64,000 bases of DNA from Kordia aestuariivivens (GTDB lineage Bacteria > Bacteroidota > Bacteroidia > Flavobacteriales > Flavobacteriaceae), in NCBI RefSeq assembly GCF_014397005.1, contig NZ_JACGWS010000003.1, forward strand, positions 62,001 to 126,000, given 5' to 3'. Made by a program: the position numbers and the translations under genes. Of the stretch, positions 19,022 to 43,130 are shown in pieces (the stretch's first letter is position 1; each line of letters opens with the position of its first letter). Under the pieces are notes generated by a model, which saw only the letters and a program-made list of their open reading frames with translations, had not been told where the DNA came from and did not search any database.

Positions 19022-19196
19022 GCCATTCTTTTTCCGCAGTATAGCAGCTATTTTCCGTTAAAAATTTTTGAAGCCTTGGAGAAAATTTAGGAAAATAGAT
19101 GTGGTTTTAGTTTTCCTGAGAAAACTAAAAATACCTCTGGAAAAAGCGCACTTTCTTTTGTTTCTGTTTTCTTTGTGCGAGCAAAAAAAATGAAAA
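19022..19196 (+). repeat. structured dispersed element, family A, copy 1
   Basis: Most of the 460-bp divergent gap between cvpA and the gene at 19317 is this element, which recurs at 42955-43130. The outer stem is CTTTTTCC (19028-19035) with GGAAAAAG (19139-19146). Stem 2 is CTATTTTCC (19048-19056) with GGAAAATAG (19090-19098), extended inward by AAATTTT/AAAATTT around TTGAAGCCTTGGAG. Stem 3 is TTTTAGTTTTC/GAAAACTAAAA with loop CTGA. A downstream TTTG..CAAA hairpin follows. In the other copy the stem sequences differ but still pair. No open reading frame explains it. The coding strand of the element is unknown. Confidence 0.75.
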
Positions 19197-19316
19197 TTAG
19201 TAAGAAAAATTAGGGTATTTGATTAGTGTTTAGAATTGAGATACCTAAGTTTTTTTGAGAAATATACTGATATCAATACGCGTTAATTACCTTTGCAGCT
19301 GAAAAAGAACGAAATA

Positions 19317-19673
19317 ATGGCAAGAGACGAACAATTAAAGGAACGGTGGAATGGATTAGTTGAAAAACTAACGCTTCAATTTGCAGAAGGCGACACACTA
19401 GACTTGGATGCAATTATCTATTTAATTGGCGTGCAAGAATTGGGTCAAATCCATAAAACATTCAAAAAAGACGAAAAAGTAAACCTCATGCATATTGCTA
19501 TTTGTCGTTTGTTGGAACCGTATGGTTATTACGAATTTGACTATTTTGATGATGATGGTTGGCCACATTACAAATTCAAAGAAGAATTGCCAACATTAAA
19601 AGCGGGAGAGCAAACTGTTTTAATGAAAGAAGCCATCGTTAATTACTTTTTGGAAAAGGAATACATTGTATAA
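19317..19673 (+). CDS. conserved flavobacterial hypothetical protein
   Basis: A 118-residue protein starting MARDEQLKERWNGLVEKLTL. An in-frame ATG 24 bp upstream exists, but the MARDEQ start looks like the usual one. It is acidic with no signal or membrane segment; LDAIIYLIGVQELG and HIAICRLLEPYGYYEFDYFD look like a compact helical domain. Function unknown. It precedes pheS by 43 bp on the same strand, although a promoter-like sequence lies in between. Confidence 0.75.
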   Translation: MARDEQLKERWNGLVEKLTLQFAEGDTLDLDAIIYLIGVQELGQIHKTFKKDEKVNLMHIAICRLLEPYGYYEFDYFDDDGWPHYKFKEELPTLKAGEQTVLMKEAIVNYFLEKEYIV

Positions 19674-19693
19674 GCTAGTTTTGTTTAAATTTG
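19666..19693 (+). promoter_or_regulatory. candidate Bacteroidota promoter for pheS
   Basis: TTG (19666-19668), 17 bp, then TAAATTTG (19686-19693), a perfect match to the Bacteroidota minus-7 element TAnnTTTG. The expected transcription start falls around 19698-19700, giving a short leader before the pheS ATG at 19717. Confidence 0.55.
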
Positions 19694-19716
19694 CAAGCTA
19701 AATTAAGAAGATCGTC

Positions 19717-20736
19717 ATGATAGATAAGATCAAGGAACATATTGCTGAGGTAGAAAAGTTTACTACAAAAGCAAAAGAAGATATTGAAAACTTCAGAATT
19801 AAATACTTAGGTAAAAAAGGATTACTAAAAGAATTTTTTGCTGAATTTAAGAATGTTCCTAATGAACAAAAGAAAGAGTTTGGTCAAATTGTAAACCAAT
19901 TACAAAAAGCGGCTCAAGAAAAAGTAAATGCTTTAAAAGAAGTGTTGGAAAACAATGTGGAAGAAAAAAGTGTTTATGGTGATTTAACGCGTCCGGCTGA
20001 ACCGATTGAAATTGGTGCACGTCATCCAATATCATTAGTAAAGAATCAAATTACAGATATCTTTTCGCGTATTGGATTTAATGTGTCTGAAGGACCAGAA
20101 ATAGAAGATGATTGGCACAATTTTACCGCATTGAATCTTCCAGAATATCATCCAGCACGTGATATGCAGGATACATTTTTCATTCAAACAAATCCAGATA
20201 TTTTATTACGAACACACACAAGTTCGGTGCAAGTTCGATACATGGAAAACAACCAACCGCCAATTCGTACGATTTCTCCAGGAAGAGTATATCGCAATGA
20301 AGTGATTTCGGCACGTTCTCACTGCTTTTTCCATCAAATAGAAGGATTATATATAGACAAAGATGTAAGCTTTGCAGACTTAAAACAAACCTTGCAACAT
20401 TTCACTAAAGAGATGTTTGGAAAGTCGAAAATTCGCTTGCGTCCTTCGTATTTCCCGTTTACAGAACCAAGCGCAGAAATTGATGTGTATTGGGGATTGG
20501 AAACAGAAACCGATCACAAAATTACCAAAGGAACAGGTTGGTTAGAAATCGGTGGTTGCGGAATGGTAGATCCGAATGTGTTGACAAACTGCGGTATTGA
20601 CCCAGAAGAATATTCAGGATTTGCGTTCGGTGTTGGAATTGATCGTATTGCGATGTTATTACACCAAATAGGTGATATTCGTTTGTTGAGTGAAAACGAT
20701 GTACGCTTCTTAGCGCAATTCAAATCGGCATTATAA
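19717..20736 (+). CDS. pheS: phenylalanine-tRNA ligase alpha subunit
   Basis: A 339-residue class II aminoacyl-tRNA synthetase subunit, the normal length for PheS. It joins Phe to tRNA-Phe together with PheT. The N-terminal coiled coil (about 1-85) binds tRNA. The catalytic domain has motif 2 in GRVYRNEVISARSHCFFHQI and motif 3 in GFAFGVGIDRIAML; ALNLPEYHPARDMQDTFFI is also characteristic. pheT is not in this window, so the two subunit genes are separate, as is usual in Bacteroidota. No Phe-rich leader peptide is visible upstream. Confidence 0.97.
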   Translation: MIDKIKEHIAEVEKFTTKAKEDIENFRIKYLGKKGLLKEFFAEFKNVPNEQKKEFGQIVNQLQKAAQEKVNALKEVLENNVEEKSVYGDLTRPAEPIEIGARHPISLVKNQITDIFSRIGFNVSEGPEIEDDWHNFTALNLPEYHPARDMQDTFFIQTNPDILLRTHTSSVQVRYMENNQPPIRTISPGRVYRNEVISARSHCFFHQIEGLYIDKDVSFADLKQTLQHFTKEMFGKSKIRLRPSYFPFTEPSAEIDVYWGLETETDHKITKGTGWLEIGGCGMVDPNVLTNCGIDPEEYSGFAFGVGIDRIAMLLHQIGDIRLLSENDVRFLAQFKSAL

Positions 20737-20737
20737 C

Positions 20738-20822
20738 CTAGCGTTATTACGAGCTAGAGCGAAGTAATCTGTTACTTAAAAAGCAGATTGCCACAACTTT
20801 TTCAAAGTTTCGCAATGACGGA
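20738..20822. repeat. palindromic intergenic repeat after pheS
   Basis: An imperfect long hairpin fills the pheS downstream gap: arms CGTTATTACGA and TCGCAATGACG, and AGTAATCTG and CAGATTG, around a TTACTTAAAAAG loop. The arm sequence (CGTCATTGCGA.. read from the other side, ..AATCTG) is of a type widely scattered between flavobacterial genes. It could end pheS transcription, but is more likely a dispersed palindromic repeat. Confidence 0.65.
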
Positions 20823-20851
20823 ATTTATTTTTTACAGAAATAATACGCAAA

Positions 20852-21247
20852 ATGAAAAAAGACATTGAAATTCCACAAGTAGAAGGCTTGTATATGGCTG
20901 TTGTAGAAGAATACAATGAAATCTACAAATCAGACGATTGGAACGCGTATATCATCAATGAAAAGGATGTTGACTTAGAAATGATATTGATTGTTACGCG
21001 CGGATACGATGCGGAAAGAGAAACGTCAACAATGCGTCACAAATTGGCAAAATTGCCTGCAAAATCGTATGCAAAAGCGGAGTGGTTGCAAGAAGATGTT
21101 TTTGCATTAAATAACGAGTTTAGAGTTACCTTTTTTGAAGGTGGAAAAATGTATGATAAAAAGTATCTTTTCAGAAAAAACACGATTAACAAGAATGCGT
21201 TTCAAGAAATTCCACTAATGAATACGACTGGGATTTTGGTGAAATAG
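20852..21247 (+). CDS. hypothetical protein
   Basis: A 131-residue soluble protein starting MKKDIEIPQVEGLYMAVVEE. It appears to be a compact alpha/beta protein without signal or membrane helices. LILIVTRGYD-like strands and a C-terminal DKKYLFRKNT strand are visible, but I recognise no family. It ends just before the 17-bp tandem repeat. Its own promoter is not obvious, and it is separated from pheS by a palindromic repeat. Confidence 0.72.
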   Translation: MKKDIEIPQVEGLYMAVVEEYNEIYKSDDWNAYIINEKDVDLEMILIVTRGYDAERETSTMRHKLAKLPAKSYAKAEWLQEDVFALNNEFRVTFFEGGKMYDKKYLFRKNTINKNAFQEIPLMNTTGILVK

Positions 21248-21250
21248 ACT

Positions 21251-21393
21251 TGTTGGAATCGCTTCGCTGTTGGAATCGCTTCGCTGTTGGAATCGCTTCG
21301 CTGTTGGAATCGCTTCGCTGTTGGAATCGCTTCGCTGTTGGAATCGCTTCGCTGTTGGAATCGCTTCGCTGTTGGAATCGCTTCGCTGTTGGA
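21251..21393 (+). repeat. 17-bp tandem repeat, eight copies plus a partial one
   Basis: The unit TGTTGGAATCGCTTCGC repeats exactly eight times from 21251 to 21386, followed by TGTTGGA of a ninth. It starts 3 bp after a stop codon. Because 17 is not a multiple of 3 the array reads open as an artificial 17-residue peptide repeat, but that is not a gene. The unit resembles ATCGCTTCGCTGTT-type segments in other intergenic repeats of this window (reverse strand near 54000-54015 and 31457-31475). Confidence 0.95.
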
Positions 21394-21427
21394 TTTATCT
21401 CACTAGTTCGCTATAAATTATTCATAA

Positions 21428-21470
21428 CGTCACTTCGAGCGATTTTCGACAGAAAATTGTATCGAGAAGT
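21428..21470. repeat. dispersed repeat, family C
   Basis: Begins CGTCACTTCGAGCGATTTTC and ends GTATCGAGAAGT, with partly complementary ends (ACTTCGA / TCGAGAAGT). Relatives are at 25884-25926, 53830-53883, 58273-58320 and 60418-60494. The 204 bp between this array and the antitoxin gene holds no other feature I can support. Confidence 0.7.
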
Positions 21471-21596
21471 ATTTTACTTTCAAAACATTCAAGTTTTTGA
21501 ATACATCTTCAAATTAAAATATCAATTTCACTTTATATCTTCATATAAATGATTTATGATAATTTACGTATATTTGGTAGTATAGTACTTTTTATA

Positions 21597-21842
21597 ATGG
21601 GAGCAATAGAGTTAAAAAATAAAATAATACAACTTTTAAATACTGATAACATATCTTATTTAAAGGAAGTCTTTGATTTTGCTGAAAAAAATAAATTACA
21701 ACATACAGATTCTTTTCAGGAATTGCCAACTCCTATTCAAGAACTACTTTTAGAAAGTGCAGCACAAGCCGATCGAGGTGAACTTACGTCTCATGATAAA
21801 GTTATGGAAGAAGTGCAAAAAAGATATAATCTCACCAAATAA
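21597..21842 (+). CDS. type II antitoxin, short helical protein
   Basis: An 81-residue protein from MGAIELKNKIIQLLNTDN. A longer in-frame start at 21549 exists but would add a hydrophobic 16-residue stretch not expected here. The pattern of a leading helix, then LPTPIQELLLESAAQADRGE, LTSHDKVMEEVQKRYN, is that of small antitoxins paired with ParE/RelE toxins; the C-terminal helix would bind the toxin. It is followed after 3 bp by the toxin gene. Confidence 0.78.
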   Translation: MGAIELKNKIIQLLNTDNISYLKEVFDFAEKNKLQHTDSFQELPTPIQELLLESAAQADRGELTSHDKVMEEVQKRYNLTK

Positions 21843-21845
21843 TAG

Positions 21846-22163
21846 ATGTCCAAAATAATAGTTTCGTGGACACCTTATGCTAAATTTTCATATTTTGATG
21901 AGTTAGATTTTATTGAATCTAAATGGACTTCTAAAGAAGTGAATGCTTTTATCGCTCTTGTTAATGGATTTATTGAAAACTTGTCTTGTGGTATTATTCA
22001 AGGAAAAAAATATTCACCTAAAAATATTCATTCATTAGTAATCTCAAAACAAACAACAGTATTTTATAGAATGCATCCAGATCAAGATTTAATCACATTA
22101 CTTTTATTTTGGAACAATCAAAAAGATTCAAATATGTTGAAAAAGACTTTACAAAGGATATAA
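21846..22163 (+). CDS. RelE/ParE superfamily toxin
   Basis: A 105-residue protein starting MSKIIVSWTPYAKFSYFDEL. It shows the ParE/RelE pattern: a beta strand (KIIVSWTPYA), two helices (about 15-48), then strands with SLVISKQTTVFYRMH and ITLLLFWNNQKD. The late F/W-x-N-x-Q/R pattern, FWNNQKD, is typical of ParE-like toxins. The target, gyrase or ribosome, cannot be told from sequence. With the preceding gene it forms a complete type II toxin-antitoxin operon. Confidence 0.8.
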   Translation: MSKIIVSWTPYAKFSYFDELDFIESKWTSKEVNAFIALVNGFIENLSCGIIQGKKYSPKNIHSLVISKQTTVFYRMHPDQDLITLLLFWNNQKDSNMLKKTLQRI

Positions 22164-22226
22164 TTGCAGAAAAACAATCATTCCATTTTCAAATTAACAC
22201 ATTGAAACATTTTCAAATTGAAAACA

Positions 22227-23228
22227 TCAATCCAACTTATCCGTTAACTTCTGAAAAACTTTCTTAGGATCTTTATTCTGATATAGAATTGCGTAGACAG
22301 CATCAATAATTGGCATTTGTGTCTTCTTAGTATTTTTCTGATTCAATAAATACGCGCTGTTCGTTGCATAATAACCTTCAGCAACCATATTCATTTCCAT
22401 TTGAGCAGACTTTACAGTGTAGCCTTTTCCAATCATGTTTCCGAACATTCTGTTTCGAGAGAATACCGAATAACCAGTTACGAGTAAATCGCCCAAATAG
22501 GCAGAGTTATTGATGTTCCGTTTCATCTTGTGCACTTTCTTGATAAAACGTTTCATTTCGCGAATAGCGTTGCTCATTAACACACTTTGGAAATTATCGC
22601 CATAACCCAATCCGTGTGCAATTCCGGCAGCAATAGCGTAGATATTTTTCAACATCACGGCATATTCTGTTCCAATAACATCATCACTTGTTTTCGTTTT
22701 GATATAATCGCTTGCTAAAACATCAGCAATTTTTTGTGCTTTTTCTTGATCGGCACATGAAATTGTCAAATATGACAAACGTTCGAGTGCAACTTCTTCG
22801 GCATGACAAGGACCTGCAATAACGGCAATGTTTTCAAACGGAGTTTTGTAAATATCATGAAAATGTTCCCCAACCAATAATCCTGATTCAGGAATGATTC
22901 CTTTTACGGCAGAAACGATGATTTTATCAGAAATATCAACCGTTAGTTTTTGTAATTCTGAAAAAACAAAGGCAGACGGAATGACAAAAATCAACACATC
23001 GGCATACTTGGCAGTTTCGTTAATATCGTTACTAAGTTTTAGTTTATCAATATTAAACTCTACCGAACTCAAATAACTCGGATTGTGTTGTTCCTTTAAT
23101 AAATGCTCTTTTGTATACACACTTCGCATGTACCAACCTACTTCATCTAAGTTCTCACAAAGCATTTTCACAATCGCGGTTGCCCAACTTCCTGCGCCAA
23201 AAACAGCATATTTTAATTCTTTGTCCAT
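22227..23228 (-). CDS. gpsA: NAD(P)-dependent glycerol-3-phosphate dehydrogenase
   Basis: A 333-residue protein that makes sn-glycerol 3-phosphate from dihydroxyacetone phosphate for phospholipid synthesis. The N-terminal nucleotide-binding site is FGAGSWATAIVKML (residues 10-23). VIPSAFVFSELQ, VSAVKGIIPESG and AGPCHAEEVALERLSYLTIS are family motifs, and the catalytic Lys region is GTEYAVMLKNIYAIAAGI. Length matches GpsA. It is convergent with the toxin-antitoxin operon and divergent from the lipoprotein gene at 23357. Confidence 0.95.
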   Translation of the reverse strand: MDKELKYAVFGAGSWATAIVKMLCENLDEVGWYMRSVYTKEHLLKEQHNPSYLSSVEFNIDKLKLSNDINETAKYADVLIFVIPSAFVFSELQKLTVDISDKIIVSAVKGIIPESGLLVGEHFHDIYKTPFENIAVIAGPCHAEEVALERLSYLTISCADQEKAQKIADVLASDYIKTKTSDDVIGTEYAVMLKNIYAIAAGIAHGLGYGDNFQSVLMSNAIREMKRFIKKVHKMKRNINNSAYLGDLLVTGYSVFSRNRMFGNMIGKGYTVKSAQMEMNMVAEGYYATNSAYLLNQKNTKKTQMPIIDAVYAILYQNKDPKKVFQKLTDKLD

Positions 23229-23356
23229 AAAATAGTTGATCTATAATTCAAAAATACGCAAAATATTGCTCTTAACGCATGCTTGAAAATCAAGAGTTTG
23301 CTTTTTTGGCATGTGTTTTGAATACTATTAAACATCAACATTAAACAGATTGGCTT

Positions 23357-24301
23357 ATGAAGACTCTAAAATTACTCTTAACAATTACATTAGTTAGTTC
23401 AATAATGAGCTCATGTTATACGGAAGTTATAGTAGAAGATCCAATTATTGATCCACCAGGAATTACTTTGAATCAGTTATTGAACTCGTATGAATTATGG
23501 TATGTAAATATCAACGAAACTACTGGAAACGGTGAAGTTCCGTTTTTACAACGTGCGTTTACGGTATCATTTATCAATGGAACCTTGTATGCAAACAATA
23601 ATATTTCGGGAATAGGAACCAACGGAAACGGATATGGAATTGATGTTGGAATCTACGGAACTGATTTCGATTTTGTAGAGATTGATCATGATATTGATGG
23701 ATTTTATCCATTGCGTGTAGATCAACTTAGTGTAAACAGAATTCGTATGGTTGATACAGCTACAAATACAAGTTATTACTTAACAGGATATCAACGTTCA
23801 AATTTTGATTACGATTTCGTATTCTATGACAATATTCACTATTTATTACAAGAATTTACGGCATGGAAAAAAACATTTACAAGTCAGACTGGAATGCTAA
23901 ATGCATTTGATGATGAAAATTTCTTAACGTTTTTATCAGGTGGAAATGATGATACATTTTTATCATCTACAGATAATGTAGATACGCCAATTGCAGATAT
24001 AATCTACGATTACGAAGGAATTTATACAGTGTATGATGTAGCTGGCGATCCGTACTCGAAAGTTTTAACATTAGATTATGATTATCTGGACAATGAATAT
24101 TTTGAATTGAACGTTATAGATGACGGAAACATAGAGTTGTTTCACCCAGATTCTGGAACAACATACGAGTTTCAAGGAAGAGGTTACATTCAATTCTTAC
24201 GTCCGTCAGCAGATGGAAGTACAACACAGTTGAAGCAGACCGATAAAAAACGTAAAAAAATTATCAATAAGAAGTTCAATAAAGACGACTTTAAGAAATA
24301 A
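23357..24301 (+). CDS. hypothetical lipoprotein
   Basis: A 314-residue protein with a lipoprotein signal (LLLTITLVSSIMSSC, Cys at residue 20). The mature part is acidic, Asp/Asn/Tyr-rich and mostly beta (DYDFVFYDNIHYLLQ, KVLTLDYDYLDNEYFELN), ending in a Lys-rich tail (KKRKKIINKKFNKDDFKK). I recognise no family. The basic tail after an acidic domain is unusual. It ends at a strong terminator 34 bp downstream and seems monocistronic. Confidence 0.78.
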   Translation: MKTLKLLLTITLVSSIMSSCYTEVIVEDPIIDPPGITLNQLLNSYELWYVNINETTGNGEVPFLQRAFTVSFINGTLYANNNISGIGTNGNGYGIDVGIYGTDFDFVEIDHDIDGFYPLRVDQLSVNRIRMVDTATNTSYYLTGYQRSNFDYDFVFYDNIHYLLQEFTAWKKTFTSQTGMLNAFDDENFLTFLSGGNDDTFLSSTDNVDTPIADIIYDYEGIYTVYDVAGDPYSKVLTLDYDYLDNEYFELNVIDDGNIELFHPDSGTTYEFQGRGYIQFLRPSADGSTTQLKQTDKKRKKIINKKFNKDDFKK

Positions 24302-24334
24302 AAACATAAAGACTTTGGTTGGTTATTTAGTTTA

Positions 24335-24376
24335 GAAACAGTTTTCACGACTTTGTGAAAACTGTTTCTTTTTTTT
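24335..24376 (+). terminator. intrinsic terminator after lipoprotein gene
   Basis: A perfect stem of about 14 bp (GAAACAGTTTTCAC with GTGAAAACTGTTTC) encloses a short GACTTT-type loop and is followed by TTCTTTTTTTT. It lies directly before the 122-bp repeat array. Confidence 0.92.
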
Positions 24377-24382
24377 AATGAA

Positions 24383-24700
24383 ACTCAGTTTTGAAAAGCC
24401 TGAAAGGCGCATGCAAAACTGCAAGTTGAATTAACTCCGCTGCAGAGCGGAGTCTTCTGCAAACGATTTCTAATTTTCTTTTCATCACAAATTACAGTTT
24501 GAAATAAGTATTTTGAAAAGCCTGAAAGTCGCATGCAAAACTGCAAGTTGAATTAACTCTGCTGCGGAGCGGAATCTTCTGCAAACGATTTCTAATTTTC
24601 TTTTCATCACAAATTACAGTTTGAAATAAGTATTTTGAAAAGCTTGAAAAGCTGCGTGCAAAATGCAACTTAAAGAAACTTTTTGCAGTACATCGTTTAG
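24383..24700 (+). repeat. 122-bp structured tandem repeat, family B
   Basis: Three unit starts (TTGAAAAG at 24391, 24513 and 24635) are exactly 122 bp apart; two units are full and the third is diverged and incomplete. Each unit starts with a hairpin (unit 1 CAGTTTTG/CAAAACTG around GCCTGAAAGGC; unit 3 ATTTTG/CAAAAT around AGCTTGAAAAGCT) and then a second hairpin (unit 1 CTCCGCT, GCAG, AGCGGAG). A relative lies at 43276-43350. The rest of the 499-bp gap is AT-rich without a gene. Confidence 0.85.
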
Positions 24701-24800
24701 TTACATAAATACTATTGAACTTTTGTGAACCACATGATTTTTCGTACATTAACAATTCAATAAAAACCTCAATTAACAAATAATAAAACAAAGAACAATT

Positions 24801-25307
24801 ATGGGATTATTTTCATTTATAAAAGATGCAGGTGCCAAAATATTTGGTGGAAAAACATCCGCTGAAAAAGCCGCAGAAGAAGCTATTGAAAAAGCTGAAG
24901 AACATTTAGAAGAAGTTGCAATTAAGAGAGCTGAAGATGAAGCGTCAATCAAAGAGACAATTCATGATTTAGATTTACACGTGGAAGATTTATATGTTTC
25001 ACTTGAAGGCGACACGGCAATCATTACTGGAAAAGCATACGATCAGGCAACTAAAGAAAAAGTAGTTTTAGTCGTAGGAAACACACATGGAATTGCCATG
25101 GTTGATGACAGAATGGAAGTAGAACACAAAGAACCAGAAGCACAATTTCATACCGTAGCTAAAGGTGATACACTTGGAAAAATTGCCAAACAATATTATG
25201 GAAATGCTATGAAATATCCAGTAATTTTTGAAGCAAACAAACCAATGTTGAAAAATCCAGATTTAATATATCCGGGACAAGTATTACGAATTCCAGCATT
25301 GGATTAA
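24801..25307 (+). CDS. BON and LysM domain protein (Kbp/YgaU-like)
   Basis: A 168-residue protein. After an Ala/Glu-rich helix (about 15-50) comes a BON domain (about 53-105; DLHVEDLYVSLEGDTAIITG) and a LysM domain (about 118-166; HTVAKGDTLGKIAKQYYGNA then YPGQVLRIP). This order and length match E. coli Kbp (YgaU), a potassium-binding protein. There is no signal peptide, as in Kbp. A potassium-sensing role is inferred by homology of architecture. It ends at its own terminator. Confidence 0.9.
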   Translation: MGLFSFIKDAGAKIFGGKTSAEKAAEEAIEKAEEHLEEVAIKRAEDEASIKETIHDLDLHVEDLYVSLEGDTAIITGKAYDQATKEKVVLVVGNTHGIAMVDDRMEVEHKEPEAQFHTVAKGDTLGKIAKQYYGNAMKYPVIFEANKPMLKNPDLIYPGQVLRIPALD

Positions 25308-25320
25308 CATACAAATATGA

Positions 25321-25348
25321 AAAACTCCTCAATCTTGAGGAGTTTTTT
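25321..25348 (+). terminator. intrinsic terminator after BON-LysM gene
   Basis: AAAACTCCTCAA pairs with TTGAGGAGTTTT, with a tight loop and a following T-run, 13 bp after the stop codon. Confidence 0.93.
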
Positions 25349-25392
25349 GCTACATATAAGTTAAAAACCTACAAAAAAGGGGAAAAGTCCCC

Positions 25393-25424
25393 TTGTTCCG
25401 TACCTCGAAAAACGTCTAATATTG
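25393..25424 (+). promoter_or_regulatory. candidate promoter for gene at 25446
   Basis: TTG (25393-25395), 21 bp, TAATATTG (25417-25424), one mismatch to TAnnTTTG. A hairpin AAGGGGA/TCCCCTT (about 25376-25394) overlaps the minus-33 region and might be an operator. The predicted start of transcription lies past the ATG at 25422, which supports choosing the ATG at 25446. Confidence 0.45.
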
Positions 25425-25445
25425 CTTTCTAAACAAACCAATATT

Positions 25446-25832
25446 ATGAGAAGCTATCGTCCACTAATAATTATTCCGCTTTCTATATTGTTATTGATCC
25501 TTTTGGGAATTACATCTTTCGTAATGCCAAAAAAGGAAATTATTGGAACTTGGGCGTCACAATCGAACCCAGAATATACATTAGAGTTTCTTCAAAATGG
25601 AATTGGGAAAGATTACTACGCAAATAAAGAAGGCAAAAATTATCATTATACCATAGCGACACAATGCGATGAATATAGCACGTATCGTTCGTTATTTGTC
25701 AAAATAACTGACGATCAAGGTGAATCTTCAAGATGTTATGAGTTGAAAGGTGTCAACGAACGCAACGATGGTACTTTAGTCTTAGTTGATATGGAAAACA
25801 ACGAAGAATATGTGTATACGAAAATTCAATAA
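25446..25832 (+). CDS. hypothetical membrane-anchored protein
   Basis: A 128-residue protein with one N-terminal hydrophobic helix (LIIIPLSILLLILLGITSFV). The remainder, from IIGTWASQSNPEYTLEFLQN, looks like a small beta-barrel of the lipocalin-like kind often seen in Bacteroidota (GTW start, repeated strands). No family is certain. An in-frame ATG at 25422 would add eight residues but lies inside the likely promoter. Confidence 0.7.
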   Translation: MRSYRPLIIIPLSILLLILLGITSFVMPKKEIIGTWASQSNPEYTLEFLQNGIGKDYYANKEGKNYHYTIATQCDEYSTYRSLFVKITDDQGESSRCYELKGVNERNDGTLVLVDMENNEEYVYTKIQ

Positions 25833-25883
25833 TTAAAAGATTGAATAAGACTGTTGTTCTATATTCATGATTTTTTTACAAAT

Positions 25884-25926
25884 CGTCATTTCAAGTGATT
25901 TTCGCCAGAAAATAGTATCGAGAAAT
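25884..25926. repeat. dispersed repeat, family C
   Basis: CGTCATTTCAAGTGATTTTC ... AGTATCGAGAAAT, a diverged copy of the sequence at 21428-21470, lying between convergent genes. Confidence 0.6.
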
Positions 25927-25985
25927 ACTTTCAAGTCACAAGCTACATTTTCAAATCAGACAATCTTCAAATTGAAAAATTAAGA

Positions 25986-26567: not shown

Positions 26568-26568
26568 T

Positions 26569-32033: not shown

Positions 32034-32052
32034 TATTAAAAAATAACAATAA

Positions 32053-35397: not shown

Positions 35398-35426
35398 AAA
35401 TTTTGAATTATATGGTTATTCCGATC

Positions 35427-35459: not shown

Positions 35460-35461
35460 AA

Positions 35462-35526
35462 AATAGGGTCAAACGATTCATTTTTATTAAATAACAATTT
35501 TGAACCCTATTATTTTTAGGGTTAAC
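35462..35526. promoter_or_regulatory. three copies of a TAGGGTT-like motif upstream of porin-amt
   Basis: AATAGGGTCAA (35462-35472) abuts the minus-33 box of the porin-amt promoter. TTGAACCCTATT (35500-35511) is its inverse, and AGGGTTAAC (35518-35526) is a third copy. The spacing and inverted arrangement suggest binding sites for a dimeric regulator of nitrogen genes. The remainder of the 435-bp gap to gltB is AT-rich. Confidence 0.5.
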
Positions 35527-35803
35527 TATTTTTTATAAGTTTTTTTGATAAATCAATAATCAGAATTTTACAAAATTCACATGATTTTAATAATTTTGAT
35601 GAAAAATCTGTAATTAAATTGATCTTTCGCAAACGTTTTCGCAAATAATGGATGTTTTTTTAAATATTTTAACATTGAATATTTTGTAAAATAAGCATGC
35701 TAAAAATGTTAAAAATGTATTTAAAAGGTCTGAAATTCCGAATCTCGAAATAATCATTTACACATAGTGACACTTCAAAAATGACACTATATATTCGTTC
35801 TTG

Positions 35804-35817
35804 AAAAAGTACTTTTT
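35804..35817. promoter_or_regulatory. perfect palindrome upstream of gltB
   Basis: AAAAAGTACTTTTT is a 14-bp perfect palindrome 15 bp before the gltB ATG. A further inverted pair, ATAGTG (35764-35769) and CACTAT (35785-35790), lies just upstream. These could be operator sites for gltBD; no matching regulator gene is in the window. Confidence 0.35.
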
Positions 35818-35832
35818 ACGTACCAAAACAAG

Positions 35833-38800
35833 ATGATTATGCTAAAGAAACAAGGACTGTATTTGCCAGAATTTGAACATGATAATTGCGGTGCAGGATT
35901 TATATGTAGTTTAACGGGAAAACGTTCTAATGATATCATTCATAAAGCACTTGAAATTTTAGTAAAACTAGAACATCGTGGTGCTGTAAGTTCGGATGGT
36001 GTCACAGGCGATGGCGCAGGAATTCTAATAGATATTCCTCATAAATTCTTTGAAAAATTCTGCGACTTTAAACTTCCAAAAGCAGGTGAATATGCAGCAA
36101 GCAATGTCTTTTTACCAAAAAAAGAAAATCAACGAAACTATTGTATTGATGTATTTGAAGCAGAAATTGACAAACAAGGCTTACAGCTTATAGGTTGGAG
36201 AGATGTTCCTGTAAACAGTGAAGTTTTAGGAGAAATTGCGAAAACAACAGAACCTTTTGTAAAACAATTATTCATAGGTAAATCTAATCCAGATCAATCA
36301 GATTTCGATTTTAAACTAAAACTATTCGCAGCACGAAAAATTGCCGAACATACAATATATGATTCCAAACTATCTGAATCGCAATTTTTTTACGTTCCGA
36401 GTTTATCTACCAAAATCATCATATATAAAGGATTACTAAAACCAGAACATATCAATGAATACTATCTAGATTTATATGACTCGGTTTTAGATACGCGTTT
36501 GGCTTTAGTACATCAGCGTTTTTCAACCAATACATTTCCAACGTGGGATTTAGCACAACCATTCAGGTACATCTGTCATAATGGAGAAATAAATACCTTG
36601 AGGGGAAATGTATCGCGCATGTTTTCACGTGAAGAAATTATGGAAAGTCCATTATTTGGTGATGACATCAAAAAAATAATTCCAACCATACTAAAAGGAA
36701 AATCAGATTCAGCAACCTTAGATATGGTAGTCGAATTATTACTCATGACAGGTCGTTCATTACCTGAAGCAATGATGATGTTAGTGCCAGAAGCTTGGGA
36801 AAAAAACGCCAACATGAATGACACCAAAAAAGCGTTCTATGAATACAATTCGTGTGTCATGGAACCTTGGGACGGGCCAGCATCGATTCCGTTTACGGAT
36901 GGGAATTACATTGGTGCCGTATTAGACAGAAATGGTTTGCGACCTTCACGATATACGGTGACCAAAAGTGGAAACGTAATCATGTCTTCAGAAACGGGTG
37001 TTGTAGACATAAAACCAGAAAATGTACGTTTTCATGGGCGTTTAGAACCAGGAAAAATGTTTCTAGTAAACATGAATGAAGGTCGAATTGTCAATGATGA
37101 AGAAATAAAAGAAGAAATAGCGTCAAGACATCCATACAGAAAATGGTTGAACGAAAACTTGGTACATCTAAAAGCAATTTCAGCAAAAAAAGGACCTATT
37201 AAATATGATGAAATAGACTTAAAAAAGCGAAAAGTAGTTTTTGGCTATACACAAGAAGATTTAAATACGATTATCAGACCAATGGCGCAACTGGCAAAAG
37301 AACCAATTGGATCTATGGGAAGCGATACGCCAATTGCAATACTATCTGAACGTCCACAACTTGTGTACAACTACTTCAAACAACTCTTTGCCCAAGTGAC
37401 CAATCCGCCTTTAGATGGAATCCGAGAAGAACTCATTACAGACATCAGTCTAACCTTAGGAAGTGATGTAAACTTATTTGACATCAATGCGGAACACTGT
37501 AAAAAGTTAAAAATTCAAAACCCAGTCATCTCAAAACACGATTTAGATAAAATTAGAAACTACGATACCAATCCTAATTTCAAAGTAGAGTCTATTTCAA
37601 TGTTATATGAAGTAAACAGAGGTTTAAATGAACTCGAAGTAGCATTGGAAAACTTAATGTCTAAAGCTTCAAAAGCAATAGATGATGGCGCAAACATTAT
37701 CATTCTGTCGGATAGATATGTTGATGAAAATCACGCGCCAATTCCAGCATTATTGGCATGTTCCTATGTTAATCATGCGTTGCATAAACTAAAAAAACGT
37801 TCAAAAATTAGCTTGATTATTGAATCTGCGGAACCAAGAGAAGTGCATCATTTTGCTTTACTATTTGGTTTTGGTGCGAGTGCTGTAAATCCATACATCG
37901 TAAATGAAATTGTTCAAGAACAAGTTGAATCTAACGATGTTACAGATTTAGAATATTTGGCAGCAATAAAAAACTATAACAAAGCGATCGGAAAAGGGAT
38001 TCTAAAAGTGATGAATAAAATCGGAATCTCTACGTTGAATTCGTATCGTGGATCTCAACTATTTGAATGTGTTGGAATTAATTCACAAACGGTTCATAAA
38101 TACTTTCCAAACACACCAACGCGAATCCAAGGAATTGGTTTAAGAGAAATTGAAAAAGAAATCGTAAAACGTCACAAAAAAGCATTTCAAGCAAATGAAA
38201 CAACTGCGGATATTGAAATTGGCGGAGAATACAGATGGCGACGTGGACAAGAAAAACATGTATTCAATCCATTAACGGTAGCAAAACTTCAAGAATCGGT
38301 TCGAACCAATAAATCGTCTACTTTCAAGGAATATTCCAACTTGGTAAACGATCAATCGAAAAGCTTAATGACTATTAGAGGTTTATTTGAATTTGATCAA
38401 TTCGATCCAATTCCAATAGAAGAAGTAGAACCTTGGACAGCAATTGTAAAGCGTTTCAAAACAGGCGCAATGTCGTATGGTTCCATAAGCAAAGAAGCAC
38501 ACGAAAACTTAGCGGTTGCCATGAACAGAATTGGCGGAAAAAGCAACTCGGGTGAAGGTGGAGAAAATCAAGAACGTTTCTACAAAAGCTCGCAAGGCGA
38601 CTGGAAAAACTCAGCCATAAAACAAGTAGCTTCTGGACGATTTGGAGTGACTTCAAACTACCTTACTAGCGCGAACGAAATTCAAATAAAAATAGCACAA
38701 GGCGCAAAACCAGGAGAAGGCGGACAATTGCCAGGTCCAAAAGTAAATCATGAAATTGCCAAAACACGAAATTCCACGCCGTATGTAGGGTTAATTTCGC

Positions 38801-40338
38801 CGCCGCCGCATCATGATATCTATTCCATTGAAGATTTATCTCAACTCATATATGATTTAAAATCTGCAAACCGAGAAGCACGAATCAATGTAAAACTAGT
38901 CTCTGAAATTGGCGTTGGAACGGTTGCTGCCGGAGTTGCAAAAGCAAAAGCAGATGTTGTTTTAATATCAGGTTTTGACGGCGGAACAGGTGCATCACCA
39001 TTAACATCACTAAAACATGCAGGTTTACCTTGGGAATTAGGAATTGCGGAAGCGCAACAAACCTTAGTCATGAACGATCTAAGAAACAGAATCGTCTTAG
39101 AATGCGACGGGCAACTAAAAACGGGTCGTGATGTTGCGATTGCGTGTTTGCTAGGCGCAGAAGAATTTGGTTTTGCAACGGCACCTTTAGTTGCTTCGGG
39201 TTGTATCATGATGCGTGTTTGCCACCTAAATACATGTCCAGTTGGTATTGCGACTCAAAATCCAGAACTGCGTAAAAAATTCAAGGGCAAGCCAGAACAT
39301 GTAGTAAACTATATGTATTTCGTAGCACAAGAATTACGTGAAATAATGGCTTCACTAGGTTTCAAAACGGTGAATGAAATGGTAGGTCAAGTGCAGAAAT
39401 TAAATCGCAACAAAGCAATTGAACATTACAAAGCATCAGGAATTGACTTAACGCCAATACTACATAAAATTGATGTTCCCGCAGACACCAAACTATACAA
39501 TACGGAAAAGCAAGATCACCATCTGGAAACACACTTAGATTTCCTAATCATAAAGCAGGCGCATCAAGCATTATTCCGAAGACAAGAAACACATTTAACA
39601 TTGCCAATAACAAACATAGATAGAGCTGTTGGAGCCATATTGAGCAATGAAATATCTAAAATATATGGAGCCGATGGTTTGCCAGAAGATACTATAAACA
39701 TTGATTTCAGCGGTTCAGCAGGACAAAGTTTTGGAGCATTTGCAACCAAAGGATTAACTTTTACAGTAGATGGAAATACGAATGACTATCTAGGAAAAGG
39801 ATTGTCAGGAGCAAAACTAATCATCAAAGTTCCGAAAGCATGTACTATTGTGCCAGAAGACAATATCATTACGGGGAATGTAACCTTATATGGCGCAACT
39901 GCTGGAGAAGTCTACATCAACGGAAAAGCTGGTGAACGTTTTTGCGTTCGTAACTCTGGAGCAAAAGCGGTTGTGGAAGGAATTGGCGATCACGGATGTG
40001 AATACATGACTGGAGGAATTGCAGTAATTCTCGGTAAAGTAGGACGAAACTTTGGCGCAGGAATGAGCGGAGGAATCGCGTATGTTTTAGATGAAGACAA
40101 TCTATTTACAGATAACTGTAATGGAGAAGATTTAAACATTGATCCACTGAAATCAAAAGAAGATCAAATACAACTAAAACAATTAATTGAAAATCATTTT
40201 GAAGCAACATCGAGTCCGTTAGCAAAACGAATATTGCAAAACTGGGAAAGCTACCTTTCAAAATTTAAAAAAGTACTTCCAGAAGAATATAGAAAAGCCT
40301 TAATAAGAATAGAAAACGAACAATTACAAACAGCGTAA
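35833..40338 (+). CDS. gltB: glutamate synthase large subunit
   Basis: A 1501-residue NADPH-type GOGAT alpha subunit. After a short propeptide the glutaminase nucleophile is Cys19 in FEHDNCGAGF (a start at Met3, 35839, is equally possible). It has a class II amidotransferase domain, a central domain, and an FMN/2-oxoglutarate domain with PGEGGQLPGPKV and SPPPHHDIYSIEDL. The iron-sulfur motif is CIMMRVCHLNTCPVG (C1124, C1130, C1135), and the C-terminus is a GXGXG helix domain. With GltD it makes two glutamates from glutamine and 2-oxoglutarate. It is 2 bp from gltD. Confidence 0.98.
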   Translation: MIMLKKQGLYLPEFEHDNCGAGFICSLTGKRSNDIIHKALEILVKLEHRGAVSSDGVTGDGAGILIDIPHKFFEKFCDFKLPKAGEYAASNVFLPKKENQRNYCIDVFEAEIDKQGLQLIGWRDVPVNSEVLGEIAKTTEPFVKQLFIGKSNPDQSDFDFKLKLFAARKIAEHTIYDSKLSESQFFYVPSLSTKIIIYKGLLKPEHINEYYLDLYDSVLDTRLALVHQRFSTNTFPTWDLAQPFRYICHNGEINTLRGNVSRMFSREEIMESPLFGDDIKKIIPTILKGKSDSATLDMVVELLLMTGRSLPEAMMMLVPEAWEKNANMNDTKKAFYEYNSCVMEPWDGPASIPFTDGNYIGAVLDRNGLRPSRYTVTKSGNVIMSSETGVVDIKPENVRFHGRLEPGKMFLVNMNEGRIVNDEEIKEEIASRHPYRKWLNENLVHLKAISAKKGPIKYDEIDLKKRKVVFGYTQEDLNTIIRPMAQLAKEPIGSMGSDTPIAILSERPQLVYNYFKQLFAQVTNPPLDGIREELITDISLTLGSDVNLFDINAEHCKKLKIQNPVISKHDLDKIRNYDTNPNFKVESISMLYEVNRGLNELEVALENLMSKASKAIDDGANIIILSDRYVDENHAPIPALLACSYVNHALHKLKKRSKISLIIESAEPREVHHFALLFGFGASAVNPYIVNEIVQEQVESNDVTDLEYLAAIKNYNKAIGKGILKVMNKIGISTLNSYRGSQLFECVGINSQTVHKYFPNTPTRIQGIGLREIEKEIVKRHKKAFQANETTADIEIGGEYRWRRGQEKHVFNPLTVAKLQESVRTNKSSTFKEYSNLVNDQSKSLMTIRGLFEFDQFDPIPIEEVEPWTAIVKRFKTGAMSYGSISKEAHENLAVAMNRIGGKSNSGEGGENQERFYKSSQGDWKNSAIKQVASGRFGVTSNYLTSANEIQIKIAQGAKPGEGGQLPGPKVNHEIAKTRNSTPYVGLISPPPHHDIYSIEDLSQLIYDLKSANREARINVKLVSEIGVGTVAAGVAKAKADVVLISGFDGGTGASPLTSLKHAGLPWELGIAEAQQTLVMNDLRNRIVLECDGQLKTGRDVAIACLLGAEEFGFATAPLVASGCIMMRVCHLNTCPVGIATQNPELRKKFKGKPEHVVNYMYFVAQELREIMASLGFKTVNEMVGQVQKLNRNKAIEHYKASGIDLTPILHKIDVPADTKLYNTEKQDHHLETHLDFLIIKQAHQALFRRQETHLTLPITNIDRAVGAILSNEISKIYGADGLPEDTINIDFSGSAGQSFGAFATKGLTFTVDGNTNDYLGKGLSGAKLIIKVPKACTIVPEDNIITGNVTLYGATAGEVYINGKAGERFCVRNSGAKAVVEGIGDHGCEYMTGGIAVILGKVGRNFGAGMSGGIAYVLDEDNLFTDNCNGEDLNIDPLKSKEDQIQLKQLIENHFEATSSPLAKRILQNWESYLSKFKKVLPEEYRKALIRIENEQLQTA

Positions 40339-40340
40339 CG

Positions 40341-41807
40341 ATGGGAAAGATAACTGGTTTTTTAGAATATGAGCGTCAAGATGAAACCTATAAAACGCCA
40401 AAAAAACGAATAAAAAATTACAAAGAATTTACCATTCCGTTAGAAACACCTGAACTTCAAAATCAAGGTGCGCGTTGTATGGATTGTGGAATTCCATTCT
40501 GTCACAGTGGTTGTCCGTTAGGAAACTTAATTCCCGATTTCAATGACAAAGTGTACAAAGGCAAATGGAAAGAAGCTGCAGAAATATTACATGCGACTAA
40601 TAACTTTCCAGAATTTACAGGTCGTTTATGTCCTGCGCCGTGTGAAGAAGCGTGTGTATTAGGAATCAATGAAGATCCTGTAAGTATTGAAAACATTGAA
40701 AAAAACATCGTAGAAACCGCTTTCGCGGAAGGTTGGATTGTTGCAAAATCACCAAAAATAAGAACCGGAAAATCAGTTGCTGTCATCGGTTCTGGTCCAG
40801 CAGGTTTAGCAGCTGCGCAACAATTAAATCGTGCAGGTCATACAATAACTGTTTTTGAACGCGATGAAAAAATTGGCGGTTTATTGCGCTACGGAATTCC
40901 CGATTTTAAAATGGAAAAACAGGTCATTGACCGTCGTATAAAAGTATTAGCAGAAGAAGGAATCACGTTCAAAACCAATGCGCATGTTGGAGTAGACATC
41001 CATGCCAATCAACTAAAAGAAGACTTTGACGCCATTGTTCTTTGTGGTGGTGCCACGGTAAAACGTTCCATTCCCATAAAAGGAGCAGAACTGAAAGGCG
41101 TACATCAAGCAATGGATTTCCTAAAACGAAATAATCAATATGTAGATGGTTTAGTTGATTTTGATCAAATAACGTCCGCAAAAGGCAAAAACGTGATTGT
41201 CATTGGTGGTGGCGATACAGGTTCTGATTGTATCGGAACGAGCAATCGTCACGGAGCAACATCAGTCACAAACTTTGAAATCTTAAGCAAGCCAACAATC
41301 GGTCGTCCTGCGCATCAACCGTGGCCATATTGGCCTATGAAACTCAAAGAAACATCATCGCATCAAGAAGGTGTGGAACGATTTTTTAGTATCTCAACAA
41401 AAGAATTTGTAGGCGACAAAAAAGGAAACCTTATCGGATTAAAAACAGTGGAAGTAGAATGGATTTTCAAAAAAGGCGAACGACCACAATTAAACGAAAT
41501 TCCAAACACTGAAAAACAATGGGACTGTGATTTAGTATTACTAGCATTAGGGTTTACAGGTGCAGAAAAAACATTAGCAGACGAATTTGGAGTGGAAATG
41601 GATTTCAGAACCAACATCAAAGCGACTACAAAAAACTATGCGACAAATGTCTCAGGTGTTTTCACAGCTGGCGATATGCGTAGAGGGCAATCATTAATTG
41701 TTTGGGCAATTTCGGAAGGTCGTCAAGCGGCATATCATGTAGATGCTTTTTTGATGGGAAGTTCTAATTTACCGTTGAAAGATGATAGTGATTTGCCGCG
41801 TGTGTGA
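40341..41807 (+). CDS. gltD: glutamate synthase small subunit
   Basis: A 488-residue GOGAT beta subunit that passes electrons from NADPH to GltB. The N-terminal Cys clusters (CMDCGIPFCHSGCPLGN; LCPAPCEEACVLGI) bind 4Fe-4S centres. The FAD motif is AVIGSGPAGLAAAQQL (about 148-163) and the NADPH motif VIVIGGGDTGSDCIGTS. The C-terminus has VFTAGDMRRGQSLIVWAI. It forms an operon with gltB; length is typical. Confidence 0.97.
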   Translation: MGKITGFLEYERQDETYKTPKKRIKNYKEFTIPLETPELQNQGARCMDCGIPFCHSGCPLGNLIPDFNDKVYKGKWKEAAEILHATNNFPEFTGRLCPAPCEEACVLGINEDPVSIENIEKNIVETAFAEGWIVAKSPKIRTGKSVAVIGSGPAGLAAAQQLNRAGHTITVFERDEKIGGLLRYGIPDFKMEKQVIDRRIKVLAEEGITFKTNAHVGVDIHANQLKEDFDAIVLCGGATVKRSIPIKGAELKGVHQAMDFLKRNNQYVDGLVDFDQITSAKGKNVIVIGGGDTGSDCIGTSNRHGATSVTNFEILSKPTIGRPAHQPWPYWPMKLKETSSHQEGVERFFSISTKEFVGDKKGNLIGLKTVEVEWIFKKGERPQLNEIPNTEKQWDCDLVLLALGFTGAEKTLADEFGVEMDFRTNIKATTKNYATNVSGVFTAGDMRRGQSLIVWAISEGRQAAYHVDAFLMGSSNLPLKDDSDLPRV

Positions 41808-41885
41808 TTTCATTCGTTAAGTATTTTGATGTAGAAACACACGCAACCAAACCACCATTTATGTATCTACAAAACAAAAAGACTT

Positions 41886-42671
41886 ATGTTAAACAAAATA
41901 CCAAAAACTGGATTACTCATATTAATTCTATTTATTTTTAGTTGTAACAGTTCTGATGACGCTACTGAAGAGCAAGTAATTAACTGTATTCCTGGAGCTT
42001 TACAAAATGGAATTATTGCGTTTTACCCTTTCAATAATGGTTCAATCAATGATTTTTCAGGGAATGGGTATAATTTGACTAATACTTCAACCGCTAGCTC
42101 TGGAACGGATAGAGATGGAAATTTAGATTGTGCATTTAATTTTACTGCCGGGAATAACGAATTTCTAGAATATGCTAATCCTGCATTTTTAGATAATTTT
42201 CAAAACGCTCCTTTTTCAATTTCACTATGGTATAACCCAACTGGTACAGATTGGAGTTTTGAAGTTCCTATGAAAAGAAGTTATGTTTCTGATTGTCAAA
42301 ACCATACTGGTCAATGGGCAATTATACTTTTTGACTGTAGAAGAGCAGTATTTGAAGTAAACCAAAACTATATTTGGAGTGACTATTATAATACTGATGG
42401 TTGTATTGAAACTACACTTGAACTTTCTAATACTTGGCAACACTTAACTGTTACTTATGATGGTGCAACAGGTCTAGAGCTTTATAGAAATGGTGTTTCA
42501 ACAACAGACATAATAGCGGGAACTTCAAACTCTTGTGGAATGCCACCTCTTGGAGATTTAATTTTAGGAGAAGACTTTAATGGATTGTTAGATGACATTA
42601 TTATTTATGACCATGTTTTATCCCAGTCAGAAATTACAACATTATACAATTTACCAGGATGTTGTCTATAA
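41886..42671 (+). CDS. LamG/concanavalin-like domain lipoprotein
   Basis: A 261-residue protein with a lipoprotein signal (GLLILILFIFSC). The mature part, from residue 35 or so, is a LamG-type jelly roll: GIIAFYPFNNGSINDFSGNG, FSISLWYNPTGTDWSFEVP, WQHLTVTYDGATGLELYRNG, GLLDDIIIYDHVLSQSEITT. Such domains bind glycans or proteins at the cell surface. It is an isolated gene between gltD and the ilv leader. Confidence 0.85.
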   Translation: MLNKIPKTGLLILILFIFSCNSSDDATEEQVINCIPGALQNGIIAFYPFNNGSINDFSGNGYNLTNTSTASSGTDRDGNLDCAFNFTAGNNEFLEYANPAFLDNFQNAPFSISLWYNPTGTDWSFEVPMKRSYVSDCQNHTGQWAIILFDCRRAVFEVNQNYIWSDYYNTDGCIETTLELSNTWQHLTVTYDGATGLELYRNGVSTTDIIAGTSNSCGMPPLGDLILGEDFNGLLDDIIIYDHVLSQSEITTLYNLPGCCL

Positions 42672-42754
42672 AAAAACGCTATGCGCAACAAGCCGCATAT
42701 AAATACATGTGTAACTATATCAATTCAAAATCAATCAATTTTTTAAACAAAAAC

Positions 42755-42786
42755 TTGGATTCCAAAAAAAACTTTTTCAATATTTG
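42755..42786 (+). promoter_or_regulatory. possible promoter for ilv leader
   Basis: TTG (42755-42757), 21 bp, AATATTTG (42779-42786), seven of eight matching TAnnTTTG. Transcription would start only a few bases before the leader ATG at 42795, so either the leader mRNA has almost no 5' untranslated sequence or the true promoter is elsewhere in 42672-42790. Confidence 0.35.
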
Positions 42787-42794
42787 AGTAACAA

Positions 42795-42857
42795 ATGAAC
42801 AAACAAAACATAAATATCATTGCTATCAATGTCATTGTGATTCGCTCACAGAGATAA
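42795..42857 (+). CDS. Ile/Val-rich leader peptide 1 of ilv operon
   Basis: A 20-codon frame encodes MNKQNINIIAINVIVIRSQR and ends in TAA. Six of 20 residues are Ile and two Val, with no Leu, in a region that otherwise lacks genes. The stop codon is followed at once by GGAATGC, able to pair with the first arm of a terminator at 42896. This is the layout of a transcription-attenuation leader peptide that senses charged tRNA-Ile and tRNA-Val, matching the ilv genes downstream. Because of its short length, confidence rests on composition and context. Confidence 0.62.
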   Translation: MNKQNINIIAINVIVIRSQR

Positions 42858-42921
42858 GGAATGCATATAAAAATTTAACTATAAAATTTACAAAGCCTTC
42901 CGAAATTGGAAGGTTTTTTTT
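42858..42921 (+). promoter_or_regulatory. attenuator 1: antiterminator candidate and intrinsic terminator
   Basis: Terminator: CCTTCC (42896-42901), loop GAAATT, GGAAGG (42908-42913), then eight T. The stem extends by AAAG/TTTT with one G-T pair. The alternative pairing is GGAATGC (42858-42864) with GCCTTCC (42895-42901), six of seven bases, exclusive with the terminator. It is weaker than that of attenuator 2. Confidence 0.6.
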
Positions 42922-42954
42922 ATGAATGTTTGTTAGATGTGAGAATGAAGCACG

Positions 42955-43130
42955 ATTTTCGTCTTTTCCGCAGTGTAGTAGGAATTTTTCGTTAAAAATT
43001 TTTGAAGCCTTGGAGAAAATTTAGAAAAATTCATACGGTTCTAGTTTTTCAGAGAAAAAACTAGAAACACCTCTGGAAAAGCGCCATTTCTTTTGTTTCT
43101 TTTCTTTGGGCGAACAAAGAAAACGAAAAA
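42955..43130 (+). repeat. structured dispersed element, family A, copy 2
   Basis: Second copy of the element at 19022-19196, here between the two ilv attenuators. The outer stem is CTTTTCC (42963-42969) with GGAAAAG (43075-43081). Stem 2 is GAATTTTTC with GAAAAATTC around the identical core TTGAAGCCTTGGAG. Stem 3 is TTCTAGTTTTT with AAAAACTAGAA. The 3' hairpin is TTTTCTTTG/CAAAGAAAA with loop GGCGAA. Each stem differs in sequence from copy 1 but remains paired. Confidence 0.75.

Follow-up and report, generated by a model that had tools for sequence, protein, structure and literature searches.

A pseudoknotted, structured RNA-like module dispersed by miniature transposable elements in Kordia aestuariivivens and other flavobacteria

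Short dispersed elements between bacterial genes may be structured RNAs, mobile DNA or both, and this question is raised by two intergenic sequences in a stretch of 64,000 nucleotides (nt) from Kordia aestuariivivens (contig NZ_JACGWS010000003.1 of assembly GCF_014397005.1, positions 62,001 to 126,000; hereafter the window). The initial annotation of the window had described two copies with an identical core and with surrounding stems that change between the copies but remain paired. Both copies were found in place: a 33-base core (GTTAAAAATTTTTGAAGCCTTGGAGAAAATTTA) is identical at 19057-19089 and 42991-43023 of the + strand, with no match at up to 3 mismatches in 100 shuffled sequences, and the listed stems pair in both. 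Judged from sequence comparison, the element is a structured RNA-like module of about 170 nt with a vehicle of the miniature inverted-repeat transposable element (MITE) type, and it points to an RNA family for which no credible Rfam match or published description was found.

The predicted fold is built around helix P1, which closes a three-way junction with a long arm (P2) and a variable hairpin (P3). Above P2, an inner helix (P2b) bears the invariant loop GAAGCCUUGGAR, and the loop of a further hairpin at the 3' end pairs with the four bases directly after P1, forming a pseudoknot to the foot of the junction. Covariation was counted on three alignments, of which A1 was made with plain MAFFT and its structure drawn by hand from its own sequences, while the structure of the covariance model guided A2 and A3, so that counts on them lean towards that structure. 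In the alignment of 35 copies, drawn from several genera, pairing was kept in 95.7% of 2071 cells (80.6% in shuffles) and 324 cells showed double changes (98.6 in shuffles), both sides changing in 30 of 61 pairs. Among 45 copies of the K. aestuariivivens genome itself, the values were 96.2% (89.1% in shuffles) and 190 double-change cells (55.0 in shuffles), with both sides changing in 26 of 56 pairs. Slid controls left 43-62% of the cells paired (43-60% for the 35-copy alignment). The selection on structure that had been proposed from two copies is thus supported by paired changes reaching far beyond them.

All four pseudoknot pairs covary in the 35-copy alignment, and Watson-Crick pairs fill 396 of the 418 pseudoknot cells in a set of 109 distinct rows. 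The commonest arm pairs in these rows are CGCA/TGCG (29), TGTC/GACA (18) and TGCC/GGCA (17), followed by CGCC/GGCG (9), CGTC/GACG (8) and TTCC/GGAA (8). P2b shows no double change among the 35 copies and 4 double-change cells within the K. aestuariivivens genome; in G148, a genome from another family of the same class, it is rebuilt as GAAACGG/CCGUUUU with the loop unchanged. Each helix and the pseudoknot are supported by such paired changes, as would be expected of a structured RNA. The three-way junction of the initial annotation is upheld by covariation and by RNAfold, which unaided gives the identical junction for both window copies; it is incomplete, since the pseudoknotted 3' hairpin also belongs to the fold. 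The inner helix, the tail hairpin with its pseudoknot, the inverted ends and the copy number are all additions to that description.

The folded strand is indicated by the non-Watson-Crick cells, among which G-U outnumbers A-C by 247 to 63 (146 to 35 without four wobble-rich pairs), implying that the + strand is the one that folds. Folding energy provides weak evidence and cannot discriminate between the strands, since the z-scores of the two window copies are stronger on the - strand (-3.1 and -3.0) than on the + strand (-2.3 and -2.0). A different origin of the pseudoknot signal would be an opposite-strand terminator, with the complement of the arms as its stem and the complement of P1 as the following U-run. 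The complement of the arms in the window copies is indeed followed by four to five T, and between tandem genes the element seldom lies in antisense. Such a terminator is nevertheless very improbable, as it leaves unexplained both the covariation in P1, P2, P3 and P2b and the G-U excess of the + strand.

A large number of further copies were detected. In the 5.46-Mb K. aestuariivivens genome, a DNA search listed 41 matches (40 of 133 candidates scored), and a core pattern allowing up to 3 mismatches matched at 61 places, whereas its reversal had 0 matches. The covariance model R1, built from 35 copies that include some sequences later matched by it, gave 88 matches at E<=0.01 among the best 150 of 7981 candidates; 72 of them are strong (E<1e-17) and the next best has an E value of 9.4e-10. 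When the best 150 candidates of each Kordia genome were scored, the matches at E<=0.001 numbered 81, 37, 118, 50, 22 and 4 in genomes G000 (K. aestuariivivens) to G005 and 46, 1, 11, 22 and 1 in G006 to G010; part of the weaker matches do not belong to this family, those at L164-L167 of G008 are a different structured element, the lone copy of G007 has an insert within the core, and the lone match of G010 is weak. Close copies are present in K. jejudonensis and K. algicida. The exact 26-base core occurs in at least 91 stretches of other GTDB genomes, all flavobacterial by title, from genera including Kordia, Salinimicrobium, Dokdonia, Leeuwenhoekiella, Lutibacter, Gillisia, Winogradskyella, Salegentibacter and Mesonia. 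In a class-wide R1 search with the best 14 candidates scored per genome, 28 of 198 genomes had a match at E<=1e-5; strong matches were confined to K. aestuariivivens and G148, the latter with 9 matches, 8 of them at 99-110 bits.

How these copies were dispersed is indicated by their borders. Copies in K. aestuariivivens and K. jejudonensis often lie between inverted repeats like AACGTGAGTTCGATATAA, and the terminal inverted repeat (TIR) pattern has 93 matches in the K. aestuariivivens genome, against 18 in a control. TIR pairs are 131-465 bp apart and, when they enclose the core, most often 294-296 bp. Target duplications of 4-5 bp flank many copies; in a hand tally, 20 of the 44 listed TIR pairs, one of them in Dokdonia, were flanked by an exact duplication 4 bp or more in length. 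The element is therefore short, multi-copy (72 strong copies) and non-coding (none of 62 K. aestuariivivens entries lies in an open reading frame of 80 aa or more), with TIRs on part of its copies and target-site duplications, as is typical of MITEs. No autonomous transposon with the same ends was seen by eye in the 93 TIR matches or in the fetched loci. Identical ends also occur on core-less MITEs with other hairpins (L196-L202 of the K. aestuariivivens genome, 131-263 bp, most with a CTTCGAGCGCAGTCGAG-type hairpin), indicating that the core is not needed for movement. Copies in Salinimicrobium and Gillisia have different outer sequences. Carriage by phages, viruses or plasmids found no match in an exact 26-mer search of viral contigs or in blastn against phages and plasmids, searches that distant variants could escape.

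The two window sites are consistent with insertion. At the site of copy 1, both flanking genes are present with no element between them in 10 of 10 relatives; at that of copy 2, the flanking genes are kept and the element is absent in all 9 relatives whose site was obtained (no G002 locus). Insertion in the K. aestuariivivens lineage is the simplest account of these empty sites, although the relatives are too diverged for the exact joints to be read at either site. Not at the copy 1 site itself but within about 2.5 kb of it, G002 and G003 do carry a copy. The coordinates of both copies are given in Table 1.

Table 1. Parts of the two window copies and the surrounding stretches lacking in relatives (window coordinates)
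Feature	Position	Strand	Basis or remark
Structured core, copy 1	19023..19197	+	R1 174.7 bits
Copy 1, P1	19028-19035 with 19139-19146 (span 19028..19146)	+	covariation, alignment, RNAfold
Copy 1, junction helix AGTAT/ATAC..T	19038-19042 with 19131-19136	+	
Copy 1, P2	19044-19056 with 19090-19102 (span 19044..19102)	+	covariation
Copy 1, inner helix P2b	19062-19068 with 19082-19088	+	covariation in G148; 4 double-change cells in own-genome alignment
Copy 1, invariant loop	19069-19081	+	
Copy 1, P3 hairpin	19105..19130	+	covariation
Copy 1, tail	19147..19195	+	pseudoknot arms 19147-19150 (CGCA), 19176-19179 (TGCG)
Copy 1, tail hairpin strands	19161-19175 and 19182-19195	+	
Copy 1, outermost limits of the stretch lacking in relatives	18907..19283		left 18907-18917, right 19246-19283, by relative
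Structured core, copy 2	42957..43130	+	R1 174.5 bits
Copy 2, P1	42963-42969 with 43075-43081 (span 42963..43081)	+	alignment, RNAfold
Copy 2, P2	42978-42990 with 43024-43036 (span 42978..43036)	+	covariation
Copy 2, P2b	42996-43002 with 43016-43022	+	
Copy 2, invariant loop	43003-43015	+	
Copy 2, P3 hairpin	43039..43066	+	covariation
Copy 2, tail	43082..43128	+	pseudoknot arms 43082-43085 (CGCC), 43109-43112 (GGCG)
Copy 2, tail hairpin strands	43096-43108 and 43115-43128	+	
Copy 2, stretch lacking in Kordia G008	42924..43146		

Structured MITEs are already known in bacteria (PMC2229807, PMC2759123), with ERIC/IRU, BOX, RUP and Correia elements as examples. These are short, dispersed, intergenic and foldable, with TIRs and target duplications, like the element described here. 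What may set the latter apart is a three-way junction with a pseudoknot that covary over many genera. Moreover, its inner module outlives the MITE ends and sits in different outer sequences depending on the genus.

Another way of reading a folding single strand is that what folds is single-stranded DNA, to be recognised by an HUH transposase (Y1, RAYT-type), as in repetitive extragenic palindromes (REPs) and IS200/IS605. Atypical secondary structures that recur at other places in the genome have been reported on the flanks of Bacteroidetes Y1 genes of subclass 2.6 (PMC6006769), and REP elements and these structures resemble the element in being dispersed and intergenic. In addition, two Y1 genes are present in G003, which carries 50 copies. 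However, no Y1 transposase was found in 5 of the 11 Kordia genomes, including G002 with 118 copies and G001 with 37, and two Y1 genes each are present in G005 and G007, which have 4 copies and 1 copy; none of 9 Y1 loci carries the core or tail motif; and the TIRs with target duplications point to another type of transposase. The element, of about 170 nt, is also unlike the short palindrome of a REP. Recognition as single-stranded DNA is therefore improbable, and a relationship of the REP/RAYT kind was rejected because Y1 genes do not track copy number and their loci lack the motifs of the element. The only Y1 gene found in K. aestuariivivens (L150, G000:C5, near 27753) is flanked by a different hairpin, CCGATAGCGCGGACTTGCAGTCCGTGC. 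The initial annotation had proposed selection on structure and, as possible identities, a regulatory RNA, an sRNA family or a REP/MITE-like mobile element. Selection on structure and a MITE vehicle are both supported and hold jointly, and a REP in the RAYT sense is not supported.

Known RNA families were also compared. No Rfam family reached its gathering score within the window, and for copy 2 the best of 28 matches at E<=10 was a snoRNA model with 28.7 bits (gathering score 44, E 0.0019), so that Rfam 15 holds no credible match. The possible relation to Flavo-1 (RF01705) raised in the initial annotation was not supported, as Flavo-1 was not among the 28 listed matches of copy 2 either; this and other Rfam families were set aside for want of a covariance-model match. 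No description of the element was found in the literature searched, which omits most subscription journals. Flavo-1 resembles it in being a widespread structured flavobacterial motif with many genomic matches and no assigned function (PMC2864571, PMC9723704), and its matches in F. psychrophilum are reported in sense or antisense without preference; in contrast, the present element is oriented with tandem genes. A guide RNA of an RNA-guided nuclease of the TnpB or IscB type would likewise be a dispersed, pseudoknotted structured RNA beside variable flanks. This idea is hardly credible, since no TnpB domain was found in any of the 11 Kordia genomes (which disfavors a TnpB omega-RNA), HEARO was not among the Rfam matches of the window or of copy 2 (the IscB gene itself was not searched for), and no neighbouring gene recurs.

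The genomic context of the copies provides information about transcription. None of 62 K. aestuariivivens entries (61 distinct copies) lies in an open reading frame of at least 80 aa, and 4 of 99 other copies overlap one. Between tandem neighbours, the element runs with the genes in 57 cases and against them in 16 (23:7 in K. aestuariivivens, 34:9 elsewhere; p 1.5e-6). When orientation was scored by adjoining gene 3' ends, the bias was weaker, at 39:23 in K. aestuariivivens (p 0.056) and 60:35 in the others (p 0.013). In the neighbour table copy 1 is counted twice, which leaves the tandem counts unaffected, and copies of one locus are not independent. The largest cluster of neighbour proteins has 5 members, and a riboswitch or leader tied to one gene class was rejected because no downstream gene recurs beyond this. 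Copy 2 lies in sense just 5' of an Ile-rich leader peptide (MNQIIISSIVIIIINSS) and an attenuator-like hairpin, identified by eye at 43158-43277, which precede ilvE, ilvD, ilvB and ilvN.

The fate of the fold after loss of the MITE ends was examined in 47 of the 72 strong K. aestuariivivens copies, all matches at E<=1e-12 and mostly without nested inserts; as these copies already matched the model well, decayed or broken folds are under-sampled among them. End status was judged as a fuzzy match against 300 random window positions, and the classes were regrouped by hand: a clear 5' repeat (at most 2 errors) is present in 13 of the 47 copies, neither end exceeds the random level in 28 (4 or more errors at the 5' end and 3 or more at the 3' end), and 6 copies fall between these classes and were not compared. 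By hand tally, a mean of 2.2 of about 55 pairs is broken in the 28 end-less copies and 2.0 in the 13 with a 5' end. Under the script's own thresholds the means are 2.0 for both ends (n=16), 2.28 for intermediate copies (n=29) and 1.0 for neither end (n=2). Among 25 of the 28 end-less copies, neither flank is common to any of the 300 pairs; in 12 of the 13 repeat-bearing copies, the 5' flank is common to 36 of 66 pairs and the 3' flank to 21 of 66. Part of the end-less copies retain a short 5' MITE linker and therefore look like decayed MITEs, and a decayed end can be recognised by eye in one or more copies of the end-less class (L017). What this sample shows is that many old copies have kept their fold, which is not to say that none has decayed.

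Strand, orientation and persistence together suggest that the module, which MITEs disperse, acts in cis in read-through transcripts, a reading to which a probability of roughly 0.45 is given; that the fold itself does a job is probable. MITEs, as small non-autonomous DNA transposons, disperse the module, which would then be transcribed in sense by read-through and fold in the RNA between genes or past a stop codon. There the invariant loop may bind a putative conserved host factor in cis, with possible effects such as setting or protecting transcript ends or rendering the insertion harmless, and selection at the RNA level would retain copies once the MITE ends decay.

Several observations weigh against this reading. 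Besides the under-sampling of broken folds and the six copies outside the comparison, the orientation bias at gene 3' ends is by itself weak in K. aestuariivivens, and copy number drops to 1 in two Kordia genomes. Nested repeats disrupt many copies, and of three Winogradskyella copies (L059, L062 and L113) apparently at one shared site, that of L062 is half deleted, which implies that individual copies are dispensable. The nested disruptions and the half-deleted copy, together with a range of 1 to 118 copies within one genus and the different outer sequences in Salinimicrobium and Gillisia, favor a purely selfish cargo, in which the fold would serve the spread of the MITE (for example by helping to supply transposase or by protecting an intermediate) and do nothing for the host; end-less copies would be survivors that have not yet decayed or would derive from relatives with other ends. 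This explanation is doubtful, although it is the strongest of the rivals, as the end-less copies have unrelated flanks and intact folds, some of them look like decayed MITEs, and core-less MITEs with the same ends show that movement does not need the core. The nested repeats, of GTGCTGAACTTGATTCAG, CCTGTCCTGAGCGATAGTCGAAGG and TCGAAGATTCATGAGTTC..GAACTAAAA types, were seen at L028, L084, L102, L109, L119, L158, L211 and L214, and the shared Winogradskyella site lies between a 203-aa gene and a 421-441 aa gene that is bioA-like by eye. At L206 (G000:C46, near 152623), a copy ends inside the core and is followed by an open reading frame resembling, by eye, the start of an IS3-type transposase.

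The 3' tail also occurs outside the family. A scan for the tail hairpin in 1.17 Mb of fetched loci gave 87 places, 68 with a core nearby; by eye, the other 19 comprise 4 interrupted copies, 4 places of the G008 element, 10 of a CCGGCCTA...GCCTAG or similar repeat and 1 other. A candidate pseudoknot arm is present at 61 of the 68 core-bearing places and at 10 of the 19 others; the CCGGCCTA family has the hairpin, with a candidate arm in only 2 of 10. In 683,769 bases of core-bearing loci the hairpin occurs 56 times, against 0, 0, 0, 1 and 0 in Markov shuffles, which excludes chance as its source and does not measure the number of tail-sharing families. Repeats of the CCGGCCTA...GCCTAG type with a tail-like hairpin lie at L039:7253, L065:5770, L075:5539, L082:3695, L083:5810 and L100:1355, in Salinimicrobium, Leeuwenhoekiella and Salegentibacter. 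The G008 element (L164-L167, near 1501-1651) has its own P1, of CGTCTGTG..CACAGACT type, and the same pseudoknotted tail. The weaker class-wide matches that were checked by eye, from 10 genomes, belong to other structured sequences whose tail is similar, and further structured repeats of this kind from Bacteroidia are found at L231-L240 (G067, G057, G015, G062, G013, G186 and G156). In a CCACG..CGTGG type, the pseudoknot arms change jointly (TGTC/GACA, TGCC/GGCA) and P1 changes in a paired manner from CCACGCCC/GGGCGTGG to CCACGAAAG/CTTTCGTGG. No Rfam match at E<=0.1 was found in 16 tail-sharing loci. The presence of the tail in these families is to be expected, since they were found with tail-bearing queries.

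It is conceivable, if rather unlikely, that the element is one of a superfamily of mobile modular Bacteroidota RNAs, in which unrelated 5' domains are joined to a shared pseudoknotted 3' tail recognised by a common trans-acting factor. Families of short interspersed elements (SINEs) are known to share the tail of a long interspersed element. The likeness is that 5' bodies of different kinds carry similar hairpin tails at the 3' end, and the difference lies in the DNA-transposon ends of the present element, which are located outside the tail; retrotransposition with the tail as the 3' end was rejected because the transposon ends extend beyond it. If it exists, such a superfamily would be a bacterial counterpart of tail-sharing SINEs, carried by DNA transposons and working as RNA.

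These results point to an RNA family, and probably to several tail-sharing ones, without a match in Rfam 15. Bacterial MITEs are usually regarded as debris, whereas the complex, pseudoknotted fold of this element is intact at many loci in many genera with the ends gone. The function of dispersed repeats thereby becomes directly testable, with a defined RNA carrying the invariant loop and with a single genome that offers copies in sense, in antisense and in broken form.

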